NCBI GenBank assembly: GCA_021160245.1
Contig: JAGHCW010000079.1
Location: 1-13,330, forward strand
Direction: 5' to 3'
Origin: a bacterium
GTDB lineage: Bacteria; B130-G9
DNA: 13,330 nt
Positions 4,911 through 11,805 of the stretch are shown here, in pieces. Positions within the stretch are counted from its first letter, which is position 1. Each line of letters starts with the position of its first letter. Both the position numbers and the translations under genes were made by a program. Under the pieces are notes generated by a model. It was given only the letters and a program-made list of their open reading frames with translations, was not told the DNA's origin and did no database searches.

Positions 4911-5852
4911 TTATTTTGGCAGTTCAACGAGTATGCAGAACTCGTCATAAGATGGGAATCCCAAACCGAGCCACTCTTCCTCGCCGGCGCGCTTGAAGCC
5001 GGAGCGCCATCTGTAGTGACCGTCCGATGCGTACTCGGGGATGATTATCTCGCCCAAGTCGTAGATAAACGATGTATCGGTTGGGATGGTGATATTGCGG
5101 AGTGCTGGTGTCTCCTCTGCGGTCCAATTGGATTCGCCCGTCTCAGGATTCGGGACCCAATAGAAGTATGGGCCGGTCCCAAACTGGAGCGCGGCGTACC
5201 AATCGACGGCGATGCTGCCAGCGTAATTCGTAAAATGGACCTTGGTCTTCGCCGGGTCCCCCGCGATATAGACGTCCCTGACATTATCCACCATGATGCG
5301 CGACTGAGGCGCGAGGTTGAGTCGCGTTGGCCGGTGTCCCTTGTACCAAAGCGTGCCATACTTTGCGAATGAGCGGCCGGGACCTTTGAAGAGCCGCGTG
5401 CTGTCCGTCCAAGGGCGATTCTCTTTGGCCCAGGTCAGCCTATCCGAGCCGTCATAGGGGATATATTGAACGCCATTGGAGAGCCCGACCCAAAGGCCAT
5501 TCTCACCCGCCTCGACATCGTATGTGTAATTATCATTAACCCAGTTGTCGAGCTGGCATGGGATGATTTGGAACGTCTGAGAGCTCTTCTGCATAATCTG
5601 GTCCGACGCACCGGCCGCGCAAAGCCAGAATGAAATCGTATGTTCGCCGGACTCATAAAGCGGGAGCTTCATCGACGTTTATCTCTTGCCCGCCATTCTT
5701 AACGTTGATGTTGATGTTCATATAATCCCCGGCGTAGAAGATGTTCTTGTTCAGGCAGACCTCAACGAGGAACGCCTCTTGGGCATCCGCCTCATAGCTG
5801 CCGAAGGCGCAGAAGGCGCAGAAAACCAGAAAAACGGGGCAAGTCGCTTCAT
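4911..5852 (-). pseudogene. Frameshifted gene for a secreted protein with Ig-like and propeller-like segments
   Basis: Three reading-frame pieces join into one plausible exported protein. The start ATG (5852) follows a good Shine-Dalgarno (AGGGAGGA, 5859-5866) and encodes MKRLAPFF. The frame must then shift in a run of five T's (plus-strand A's at 5830-5834) to continue as LVFCAFCAFGSYEADAQ, completing a signal peptide, followed by EAFLVEVCLNKNIFYAGDYMNINI, an Ig-like strand pattern. This piece stops at 5653; coding resumes in another frame as LPLYESGEHTISFWLCAAG (from about 5670) and runs to the stop at 4911. That part contains one beta-propeller-like blade (ENGLWVGLSNGVQYIPYDGS) and a C-terminal aromatic-rich domain I do not recognise. 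It may be a decayed gene, a sequencing artefact, or the remnant of a larger propeller protein. The open piece 4911-5672 alone would encode 253 residues without a signal peptide. Confidence 0.7.
5803..5825. repeat. GAAGGCGCA tandem microrepeat within the signal-peptide coding region
   Basis: Two exact tandem copies of GAAGGCGCA (5803-5820) are followed by a partial third, GAAAA. On the minus strand they encode the FCAFCAF part of the broken gene's signal peptide and lie just upstream of its first frameshift. Short tandem repeats of this kind are prone to slippage. Confidence 0.55.
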
Positions 5853-5903
5853 CTTCAATCCTCCCTATATATGAAGCCCAGTTTTGAGGATACTGCCGGA
5901 CAT

Positions 5904-5919
5904 TGTGATCTGTATCACA
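5904..5919. promoter_or_regulatory. CRP/FNR-family operator-like palindrome
   Basis: TGTGATCTGTATCACA has perfect TGTGA-N6-TCACA half-sites and matches the classic CRP consensus core (TGTGATCTAGATCACA) at 14 of 16 positions. It sits between divergent genes, 52 bases before the broken secreted-protein gene and about 150 bases before the EF-G-like gene. Which side it controls is unclear, and no CRP-family gene is in the window. Confidence 0.6.
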
Positions 5920-5993
5920 GCGGCGCCGATACAAGGTTTAAGCGACCCGGCCAATCCCAGAGTTTCCCCAAACGGCAGCCCCTCAAGCGCCGC

Positions 5994-9242: not shown

Positions 9243-9269
9243 TTAAACCTTCTGGCCTGATTGTCTGTC
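9243..9269 (+). promoter_or_regulatory. Putative ECF-sigma promoter of the first Spy-like gene
   Basis: TTAAAC (9243-9248), 17 bases, then TGTC (9266-9269). The same two elements with the identical spacing occur before the ECF sigma gene (10446-10472), while the spacers differ. The pattern resembles ECF promoters (AAC-type -35, GTC-type -10). An 8-bp inverted repeat (AGACAATC 9233-9240, GATTGTCT 9259-9266) brackets the -35 element and could be an operator or the end of the upstream transcript. Confidence 0.55.
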
Positions 9270-9379
9270 TTACGTGTGTTGGTTGTTTCACTTATCAGTA
9301 AGACGGTCTTCGGTTGATGAATAGGGCCAGTTATGACCCGCGACCGATATGGCCGGACAAAAAAACGGAGAGGGAGAAG

Positions 9380-9928
9380 ATGAAGACCAAGAGGACTCTG
9401 ATTGTGGCGGTGTCGCTTGTGTGCCTGCTTTTGGCAGGCGCAGCCTTTTCTCAGTGCGGTTTCCGTGGTCTTATGAAGGGCAATGGCAATGCCAACATAG
9501 ACAGGCCGGACAGAGAGGACGCCCGACGTGATCGGTTTGAGCGCCACCTCGAGAGGTTGGCTGAGTTTGTCGGATTGAGCGAAGAGCAGATGCAGGAATA
9601 CGAGGCGATTTTCACTGAGCATCATGAGTCGCAGAAGGAGCTACGTGATCAGCTTCGTGACGCGATGAAGACGCTTCGTGAGGAGATGGCCAAGGATGAT
9701 CCTGATGAGGAGCTGCTTGAGCAGTACATCGCAGCGATTAAGTCGCTTCGTGACCAGATGCGGGTGAATGCCGAGGCGCTGAGAACCAAGATCGAGGAGT
9801 TCGTCTCCTCGTTGACAACTGAGCAGCAGGCGAAGTTCATTCTCTTTCACGCCGCTCGCCGCGCGAGAGGTCCTATGGGGAGACATAGAGAGATGCCGCC
9901 GGAAGACAGCCCAATAGATATTGGCTAG
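9380..9928 (+). CDS. Spy/CpxP-like periplasmic protein (LTxxQ type), copy 1
   Basis: The 182-residue product starts with a clear Sec signal peptide (MKTKRTLIVAVSLVCLLLAGAAFS, residues 1-24). The mature part is a charged, all-helical protein with two LTxxQ-like motifs, LSEEQ (66-70) and LTTEQ (145-149). This is the layout of periplasmic Spy, CpxP and heavy-metal-sensor (CnrX/ZraP) relatives, which act as chaperones or as sensors feeding signals to regulators. The ATG at 9380 is preceded by AGGGAGAAG; an in-frame ATG at 9314 would place a charged stretch before the signal peptide and is unlikely. A promoter-like site matching that of the sigma gene lies about 110 bases upstream, and a strong terminator follows. 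A second relative sits at 11879 and shares the segment QQAKFILFH. His pairs (EHHES) could bind metal, but this is untested. Confidence 0.85.
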   Translation: MKTKRTLIVAVSLVCLLLAGAAFSQCGFRGLMKGNGNANIDRPDREDARRDRFERHLERLAEFVGLSEEQMQEYEAIFTEHHESQKELRDQLRDAMKTLREEMAKDDPDEELLEQYIAAIKSLRDQMRVNAEALRTKIEEFVSSLTTEQQAKFILFHAARRARGPMGRHREMPPEDSPIDIG

Positions 9929-9984
9929 CAGCAGCCGGTTTGATCAGACCCCTTAATAGGGTATCTCACAACCGCATCTTATTT

Positions 9985-10016
9985 AAGGGCGCGCCCGATT
10001 TGGGCGTGCCTTTTTT
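9985..10016 (+). terminator. Intrinsic terminator after the first Spy-like gene
   Basis: A 12-bp stem with two G-U pairs (9985-9996 with 10002-10013) and a 5-base loop (GATTT) ends in a run of six T's (10011-10016), 56 bases after the stop codon. This is the clearest intrinsic terminator in the window. It separates the first Spy-like gene from the palindrome block and the sigma operon. Confidence 0.9.
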
Positions 10017-10037
10017 ATGCTTATGGGAGTTTGGCAG

Positions 10038-10407
10038 GGGTGTGACCCTAGATTGAAAGTAGAGTTCTTAGCCATCTATATTGCCATATTAAAATACGGT
10101 GATTCGTAGGGGCGTATTGCATACGCCCTTGAATCCCACGACACCCACCTCATCGCCCGGCTTTAGCCGAGGCGATGCAAAGGGTTCCTATGATCCTAAG
10201 CCCCGAATTCATTCGGGGGATGTGCTGCCGACACCTCCCCTATATGCCCTTCAGATGGGAGATCCGGGGAGGGAGGAGGGCGCGCCTCGCCTCTACAGGC
10301 CACCCGAATGAATTCGGGTGTTAGTATGATGAGAGCCATCTATGTGCCCGCGTTGAAACGCGGTCGAGCTGACAACGAATCGCTACCTACAATCTAGGGT
10401 CACGCCC
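10038..10407. repeat. 370-bp REP-like palindrome cluster bounded by 25-bp inverted repeats
   Basis: The ends (10038-10062 and 10383-10407) are inverted repeats identical at 22 of 25 positions, with shared core GTGACCCTAGATTG. Inside are at least five separate short hairpins with 2- or 3-base loops or nested arms: 10110-10128 (GGGCGTAT/ATACGCCC), 10151-10177 (CATCGCC-CGGCT arms), 10201-10218 (CCCCGAAT/ATTCGGGG, loop TC), 10301-10320 (CACCCGAAT/ATTCGGGTG, loop GA) and 10348-10363 (CCGCGTT/AACGCGG, loop GA). The third and fourth share a core that is the exact reverse complement of each other. The word AGCCATCTAT occurs directly repeated at 10070-10079 and 10334-10343. No transposase is present and no target duplication is seen. 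It may be a non-autonomous MITE- or BIME-like element. The block lies between the terminator of one gene and the promoter of the sigma gene. Confidence 0.75.
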
Positions 10408-10445
10408 GCCGGCCGGAGATCATTTACAGTAGGTGGTAAGTCCGG

Positions 10446-10472
10446 TTAAACTTCTTTTGAATATGCGCTGTC
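10446..10472 (+). promoter_or_regulatory. Putative autoregulated ECF promoter of the sigma gene
   Basis: TTAAAC (10446-10451), 17 bases, then TGTC (10469-10472), ending 31 bases before the sigma start codon. It repeats the element pair and spacing found before the first Spy-like gene. ECF sigma factors commonly transcribe their own operon, so positive autoregulation is a reasonable inference. Confidence 0.55.
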
Positions 10473-10503: not shown

Positions 10504-11055
10504 ATGAGCGAACTAAGTGGCGACGAGATCAACCAGATTGTAAAGAAGGCGCAGGGCGGCGACAATGATGCGTTTGAGACTCTTTACAGGCAGTTTAGCA
10601 GACCGCTTTACAACACGATTGCGAGAATCGTGGGTGATGCTGAGACCGCCGAGGAGCTGGTGCAGGAGCTGTTCCTTAAGACGTTTCGGAAGATCTGCTC
10701 ATTCAACTATCGCTCGAGCTTCTACACTTGGGTCTATAGGATTGCGATAAACATGTCTCTAAATCATTTGAAATCGAGTAAATCGCGCCGTGAGACCAAG
10801 CTTCCGCCCGAGGCGTGGGATGCTATCCCCTCCGGCAGGAAGGACGACAAGGACAACGTCTTTTTGAAGGAGGCTACGCTCGCGGCAATACAAAAGGTCC
10901 CGCCAAGGCAGCGGGCGGTGCTGGTAATGCGCATCTATGACGACATGGATTATGCCTCAATTGCTGGAACTCTTGGCAGTTCAGTGGGAGCGGCAAAGGC
11001 GAATTTTCACTTCGCGATGCAGAAGCTTCGGAATTATTTGAAGGACTATAGGTAG
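10504..11055 (+). CDS. ECF (RpoE-like, group 4) RNA polymerase sigma factor
   Basis: This 183-residue protein has only the two conserved sigma domains, as in extracytoplasmic-function sigma factors. Region 2 spans about 20-92: DAFETLYRQF, the core-binding stretch AEELVQELFLKTFRKI, and the -10 recognition part SSFYTWVYRIAINMSLNHLKS. After an acidic linker, region 4 spans about 123-178 with the -35 helix-turn-helix (PPRQRAVLVMRIYDDMDYASIAGTLGSSVGAAKANFHFAMQKLR). The ATG at 10504 has only a weak ribosome site (AGAGAAG), and nothing better exists in frame. The stop directly abuts the anti-sigma gene, the usual sigma/anti-sigma arrangement. It probably directs transcription of itself and of the first Spy-like gene, because both carry matching promoter elements. 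The exact ECF subgroup is not determined. Confidence 0.94.
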   Translation: MSELSGDEINQIVKKAQGGDNDAFETLYRQFSRPLYNTIARIVGDAETAEELVQELFLKTFRKICSFNYRSSFYTWVYRIAINMSLNHLKSSKSRRETKLPPEAWDAIPSGRKDDKDNVFLKEATLAAIQKVPPRQRAVLVMRIYDDMDYASIAGTLGSSVGAAKANFHFAMQKLRNYLKDYR

Positions 11056-11058
11056 GTG

Positions 11059-11805
11059 ATGGGAATGAATTGCAGAAGATTCAGAAAGGTTCTGGACGAT
11101 TATCTTCTGGGCTCGCTTTCGGAATCAGAGAGTATCGCGATCGAGGCCCACGCAAAGAGCTGTGAGGATTGCAGGGAAGAGCTTGAGGCTGCGAGTCGCT
11201 TGCACAAGGTGTTGGCCACAGTTGATGAGCCGGCTTCGACTGTCGCGGGCGATTGGCAAGCGATAGAGAACAGGATTTGGGCACGGTTGAAGAATGAGCT
11301 GGAATCGCCCGCCAATGAGGGGTGGCTCAAACGAATACTCGACGTTTTGTTCCCACAATTTGCGCCGCGTCCGGCTTTTGCGTTTGGTGTTTCGATGGGT
11401 CTGGTAGTAGTTGGCACGCTGGTCTTGGGGCTATTCTGGCTCTCAACATCGCAGGAGAGAATCGCCTGGGACAACACGAATCTCATTCAATTCTGGTGCG
11501 ATGAGGGAACCTTAGGCTTGGAGAACGGGACGCAGATTGCTTCTATTATGACTGGCGTGGAACGAATACTCGCCGAGGACAACGGCTACGATGCGTATTC
11601 AATTGACACGGATGCGATGTTGAAATCGATCGCCTCGGAGATGAACGAGGAGGGACTTGAGCCCGGAGATTTGGAGGCCTCGCCAATGCCCTCGGTCCTA
11701 CTTGACGCGGGTGATTTCATAGAGAGTGATTTGCTCAATGCCTCAAGGAAAGAGCTCGAATCGGCAATAGAATCTGTATTTTCAGAGACGGGAAACGGAG
11801 CATGA
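11059..11805 (+). CDS. Membrane anti-sigma factor with zinc-finger (zf-HC2-like) domain
   Basis: The 248-residue protein probably holds the preceding sigma factor inactive at the membrane. The N-terminal cytoplasmic domain shows Cys5, then His31-x3-Cys35-x2-Cys38 in AHAKSCEDCREEL, the zinc-binding anti-sigma signature, flanked by DDYLLGSLSESE, typical of the family. One transmembrane helix lies at about 106-128 (FAFGVSMGLVVVGTLVLGLFWLS). The remaining 120 residues form an acidic extracytoplasmic domain that I do not recognise. Starts at GTG 11056, ATG 11059 or ATG 11065 are all possible; the middle one is used. It begins 3 bases after the sigma stop (11053-11055), so the two are translationally coupled. 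The outer domain is a candidate partner for the neighbouring Spy-like proteins, by analogy with the CnrYXH sigma/anti-sigma/sensor system; that is inference. Confidence 0.9.
   Translation: MGMNCRRFRKVLDDYLLGSLSESESIAIEAHAKSCEDCREELEAASRLHKVLATVDEPASTVAGDWQAIENRIWARLKNELESPANEGWLKRILDVLFPQFAPRPAFAFGVSMGLVVVGTLVLGLFWLSTSQERIAWDNTNLIQFWCDEGTLGLENGTQIASIMTGVERILAEDNGYDAYSIDTDAMLKSIASEMNEEGLEPGDLEASPMPSVLLDAGDFIESDLLNASRKELESAIESVFSETGNGA

Follow-up and report, generated by a model that had tools for sequence, protein, structure and literature searches.

A shared promoter motif points to a small ECF sigma factor regulon with Spy-like proteins in a poorly known bacterial lineage

Genes and motif pair of the locus

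The window, meaning the whole 13,330-nucleotide stretch of DNA that was analysed, carries a sigma factor gene followed by genes for an anti-sigma factor and a secreted helical protein, spy2, with the separate gene spy1 upstream (Table 1). The sigma protein consists of sigma2 and sigma4 domains only and scores 92.2 bits against TIGR02937 (cut-off 42.9), which places it among the ECF (group IV) sigma factors. Directly 3' of it, in the window as in relatives, lies the gene for a zf-HC2/transmembrane protein with a hydrophobic peak and an HxxxCxxC motif, as expected of a co-encoded anti-sigma factor. An acidic and leucine-containing segment (such as LSDEELELFENKL) near the anti-sigma C-terminus (window 11710-11802) is, as judged by eye, common at the ends of many anti-sigma factors of the subfamily; a contact site for a Spy-like protein is one possible role of this periplasmic segment.

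Table 1 Features of the sigma locus and of the upstream spy1 gene in the window
Feature	Position	Strand	Basis
Candidate ECF promoter of spy1	-35 TTAAAC 9243-9248, TGTC 9266-9269, N17	+	Exact match
spy1, secreted Spy/CpxP-like protein, 182 aa	9380-9928	+	LTXXQ 28.5 bits, cut-off 24.3
Terminator-like hairpin with T run after spy1	9985-10013	+	Consensus scan, 13 pairs; consensus match only
Candidate autoregulatory ECF promoter, sigma operon	-35 TTAAAC 10446-10451, TGTC 10469-10472, N17	+	Exact match
ECF sigma factor, 183 aa	10504-11055	+	Sigma70_r2 and Sigma70_r4_2 above cut-off; sigma70-ECF above cut-off
Recognition-helix residues K165-A166-N167-F168-H169-F170, sigma region 4	10996-11013	+	Alignment
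Anti-sigma factor, N-terminal zf-HC2, one transmembrane stretch, periplasmic C-terminal part	11065-11805	+	zf-HC2 37.5 bits, cut-off 22.2
spy2, third gene of operon, Spy/CnrX-like secreted helical protein, 195 aa	11879-12466	+	Third-gene profile

Spy1 is assigned to the LTXXQ family by its profile match, and its ortholog in the related genome G001 matches Metal_resist at 56.5 bits. Spy2 has no Pfam match at E 0.1, LTXXQ included. A profile built from 28 proteins encoded by third genes of such operons, all from outside the family, detects Spy2 (3e-23) and Spy1 (4.9e-20); its only other matches in the scanned family loci are the counterparts of these two. Because Spy2 lacks an LTXXQ match yet is related to Spy1 and to the third-gene family, we term it Spy-like only. 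Most third proteins contain two LTXXQ-like motifs about 76 residues apart. An AlphaFold2 model of Spy2 is helical (mean pLDDT 76), and CnrX chains fill the first eight places among its Foldseek matches, while NccX, CpxP, and Spy come within the first 20, at a best E of only 0.019. VIA-align lists many unrelated helical bundles at similar Z, and we do not read these as kinship. CnrX uses histidine metal ligands. As no invariant or nearly invariant histidine was found in the aligned Spy2 set (alignment A2), the data do not point to metal sensing as in CnrX.

The initial annotation had pointed to a pair of ECF-type promoters with identical spacing before spy1 and the sigma gene, and this pair is exact, with both sites on the + strand: TTAAAC-CTTCTGGCCTGATTGTC-TGTC at 9243-9269 and TTAAAC-TTCTTTTGAATATGCGC-TGTC at 10446-10472. 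No further match with up to one mismatch occurs anywhere in the window. Shuffled versions of the window, searched with one mismatch allowed, gave a mean of 0.39 matches and at least two matches in 17 of 200 shuffles, a figure that is weak taken alone because the motif was picked after the pair had been seen. The accompanying statement that the spacers are unrelated holds for most of their length and fails at the two ends, where both have a T-rich start (CTTCT and TTCTT) and share the base before TGTC (CTGTC). The T-rich start is part of an extended -35 element, TTAAACYTTT, that is conserved across the wider family.

The TGTC of the sigma promoter ends 31 nt before the ATG, and the terminator-like hairpin stands between spy1 and the sigma operon. 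Palindrome-like repeats (CCCCGAATTCATTCGGGG and CACCCGAATGAATTCGGGTG) were noticed by eye in the intergenic DNA between spy1 and the sigma promoter (10200-10330). Elsewhere in the window, positions 100-2338 hold the end of a methyl-accepting chemotaxis protein gene followed by two CheR methyltransferase genes, and two adjacent overlapping open reading frames of 253 and 93 aa without Pfam matches occupy 4911-5934 on the - strand and may represent a single secreted protein split by a frameshift. No Rfam RNA elements were found in the window.

The motif in the genome and in the same family

The initial annotation had proposed a genome-wide scan for TTAAAC-N16..18-TGTC and held that a motif as frequent in shuffled or coding sequence as upstream of genes would speak against the regulon. 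In a pattern search of the genome (3.43 Mb, 244 contigs), this motif occurs 8 times and the same pattern read backwards 10 times, that is, without enrichment, and several of the other matches fall inside genes. Judged by that yardstick the idea would have been thrown out, because the short motif is too common for counting to be of use. Since raw counts are uninformative here, the support comes from position and comparison: the same motif, before the same genes, in relatives. Two single matches were set aside. One, an exact site with a GC-rich spacer, precedes a secreted orphan that looks BamE-like by eye only (G000:C139) and has neither a Pfam match nor any relative among the three sister genomes; this site is a weak candidate. 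The other sits within an RND-type gene (G003:C305) and is taken as chance.

Three genomes of the same family (G001, G002, and G003) were searched with the window sigma protein, making four genomes including that of the window. The sister sigma proteins are 63-65% identical to the query, and the exact motif stands before the orthologous sigma gene in all four genomes, 30-31 nt from the start codon. It also precedes the Spy1 ortholog in each of the three family genomes that have one, namely those of the window, G001 (C87:5420), and G003 (C93:5916); no Spy1 ortholog was found in G002. None of the family's remaining ECF genes (L177-L179) has the motif upstream.

The three sister sigma sites and the Spy1 sites of G001 and G003 extend further, to CTGTCTATA. 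Across the four genomes, TTAAAC-N16-CTGTCTATA has six exact matches, all at a sigma, Spy1, or copied-sigma promoter, and its sole single-mismatch match is the window sigma promoter; an estimate that assumes equal base composition predicts about 0.02 exact matches and one single-mismatch match by chance. When up to three mismatches are allowed, the reversed control gives the larger total, which confines the signal to the best matches.

The copied promoter lies in G001 (C161, L175; site 4146, - strand), where a near-copy of the sigma promoter and of the first ~25-30 sigma codons sits upstream of a gene pair of the membrane-fusion (HlyD-like) and RND type. The arrangement suggests that the sigma promoter was copied to this place, with an assembly artefact as the alternative. 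A near match at the TolC promoter of G001 (C87:6355) was considered and left as unproven; in G003 the -10 element reads TGTT, and the TolC locus of G002 yielded no site.

The most serious competing account is that the sigma operon alone is autoregulated, the site at 9243 being a chance or decayed match and spy1 being read by another sigma factor. The window spy1 site is indeed the weakest of the sites, with no TATA extension after CTGTC and three mismatches to the CTGTCTATA-extended pattern, and fewer genomes stand behind the spy1 evidence than behind that for sigma (conservation of the spy1 site covers three genomes, two of them of one genus). Set against this, the G001 and G003 orthologs of Spy1 carry the full extended motif in a neighbourhood unlike that of the window, upstream of TolC-like and membrane-fusion/ABC-type genes and not beside sigma. 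We therefore regard regulation of the sigma operon alone as unlikely, though worth keeping in mind.

Promoter and recognition helix in other phyla

The upstream regions of 108 ECF homologs were searched with TTAAAC-N14..18-[CGT]GTC, which is present in 13 of them and in none of three control readings of the same DNA. The 13 regions include Coatesbacteria, Zixibacteria, Bacteroidota, and Latescibacterota. At nearly all of these loci the sigma gene is followed by an anti-sigma gene and then by one for a small secreted helical protein, the exception being L036, with its 14-base spacer; the order sigma, anti-sigma, Spy-like is thus kept across phyla. A Reichenbachiella locus (L058) shares the order, but its recognition helix is RAT and it lacks a TTAAAC site.

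More sets of loci were collected with a sigma protein profile alone, and not by the motif. In the larger of these sets the motif is found at all 20 sigma genes with a KAN or KSN helix vs two of nine others, both KAS (Fisher p 2.3e-5, without correction for kinship). Over all distinct loci, [AT]TAAAC-N16/17-NGTC precedes 37 of 38 K[AS][NS] sigma genes vs 1 of 131 other ECF genes, counts that are not independent events given that sigmas with the motif made up most of the profile's seed and that the loci share ancestry. The lone K[AS][NS] exception, L045, has TTAAAC with TATC. A consensus of 35 distinct promoters reads TTAAACYTTT, a spacer of 16 or 17, and GTC.

Sigma factors with other helices are associated with other -35 elements. 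All five KTN sister sigmas (L280-L284), which also have Spy-like genes downstream, show TTAGTC-N16-TGTC in place of TTAAAC, and three KVN sigmas match a TTTAAC pattern, two clearly by eye and the third (L020) doubtfully. The helix patterns were noticed first and then tested on the same and on new loci, and the KTN set was seen once only. In one further genome, a second sigma/anti-sigma/Spy-like operon (L252; G004:C84) combines a different helix with TTAAAC-N16-TGTC upstream; that genome's first sigma factor may transcribe it.

The structure of SigW sigma4 with its -35 element offers a frame for these associations, with purine-specific contacts to G-35, A-34, and the base opposite C-31, and two Arg at G-35 (PMC6713349). 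Promoters of Bacillus subtilis SigW and E. coli RpoE resemble those described here in the AAC of the -35 element and in a GTC-type -10 element, and both proteins share with the window sigma a Lys or Arg in the recognition helix that faces C-31 (PMC6713349). Unlike them, the window promoter has T for G at -35. In an alignment with SigW, the window sigma keeps the Lys (K165), whereas N167 and F170 replace the two Arg, a substitution that, at the level of aligned residues, fits T at -35 instead of G.

These data bear on whether the conserved box might serve a different regulator, or be a house-keeping promoter, instead of being the site of the window sigma. Binding of this sigma factor to the box is a prediction, and a sigma-70-like match (TTTACA-N18-TAAACT, 9 of 12 positions) at 10423-10452 overlaps the sigma promoter. 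Nonetheless, such sigma-70-like matches are found near the shuffled expectation (4 vs 2.7), and the -35 element changes along with the recognition helix of the neighbouring sigma (TTAAAC with KAN-type, TTAGTC with KTN, TTTAAC with KVN), which makes a different regulator very improbable. That both window sites are chance matches to a short motif, as the genome and shuffle counts alone would allow, can be dismissed as next to impossible, since chance leaves unexplained why the motif is found before orthologous genes both in three additional genomes and across other phyla.

A proposed stress-response circuit and its counterparts

Taken together, both motifs are, with high probability, promoters that the ECF sigma factor of the window (gene at 10504-11055) recognises; this factor would drive its own operon and spy1 upon release from the anti-sigma factor. 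The initial annotation had suggested that the sigma factor transcribes both itself and an envelope chaperone gene, and the comparative data support this suggestion: in relatives the motif is kept at sigma and Spy1 genes, and other phyla have it before sigma genes that belong to this subfamily. These comparisons count for the proposal because the window pair was not used in them. Among ECF factors at large, about 55% are considered to be autoregulated (PMC8103513). The regulon seems to have few members, among them probably spy2, the third gene of the sigma operon.

From the motif, the gene content, their conservation, and the association of motif with helix, all directly observed, we infer transcription by the window sigma, its mode of release, the kind of signal, and a role for Spy2 along the following lines. 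Without stress, the membrane anti-sigma factor would hold the sigma factor. An envelope signal, possibly sensed via the periplasmic Spy/CnrX-like Spy2, would set it free. With RNA polymerase, the released sigma factor would then transcribe two units: its own operon of sigma, anti-sigma, and spy2 genes from the site at 10446-10472, and spy1 by itself from that at 9243-9269. The outcome would be a positive feedback loop in which extra anti-sigma factor is made too, providing for shut-off. The output would be two periplasmic Spy-like proteins, of which Spy2 may double as sensor.

The closest tested system appears, by analogy, to be CirYZ-Spy of Phocaeicola vulgatus, in which RNA-seq showed that cirY, spy, and two genes close by are induced once the anti-sigma gene has been deleted; because removal of the anti-sigma factor induces cirY itself, the loop is self-activating (PMC13114119). 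Like the window, it comprises an ECF sigma factor, an anti-sigma factor, and a co-transcribed Spy protein, and the order sigma, anti-sigma, spy2 recurs in the window. CirY is likened to the window sigma by gene order and predicted regulation. The Phocaeicola system differs in belonging to another phylum, and a separate spy1 with its own site is a feature of the window; no promoter motif for CirY was found in the text of PMC13114119. CnrYXH and NccYXH of Cupriavidus metallidurans likewise combine an ECF sigma factor, a membrane anti-sigma factor, and a periplasmic helical protein. CnrX is the closest solved structure to the Spy2 model, by the weak fold match given above, and the Spy2 set differs from the CnrX type in its lack of an invariant histidine. 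Additionally, the RpoE8 operon of Azospirillum brasilense (PMC12826043) encodes, in order, a sigma factor, a hypothetical protein, and a 'periplasmic heavy metal sensor', a likeness of gene order only. That the window circuit belongs to a known type of stress-response circuit is well supported.

A broader and more speculative proposal, which we put forward as a possibility less likely than its negation, is a cross-phylum ECF subfamily with one promoter code tied to an anti-sigma factor and a Spy/CnrX-like protein. Changes in the helix (K-A-N, K-T-N, K-V-N) would track those in the -35 element (TTAAAC, TTAGTC, TTTAAC) as a natural promoter-switch series, and the Spy-like protein would gate the anti-sigma factor as a sensor and not serve only as chaperone output.

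For a poorly known lineage, the family with Candidatus Coatesbacteria, these results define a testable regulon. They also illustrate how a small regulon that comes to light when relatives are compared can be wrongly dismissed if motifs are counted in a single genome. Several phyla have the operon of sigma, anti-sigma, and Spy genes, and with it the same promoter; experimental data on such an operon were found for one gut Bacteroidales species. The association of helix with promoter supplies natural pairs with which a change of promoter choice by ECF sigma factors can be tested.
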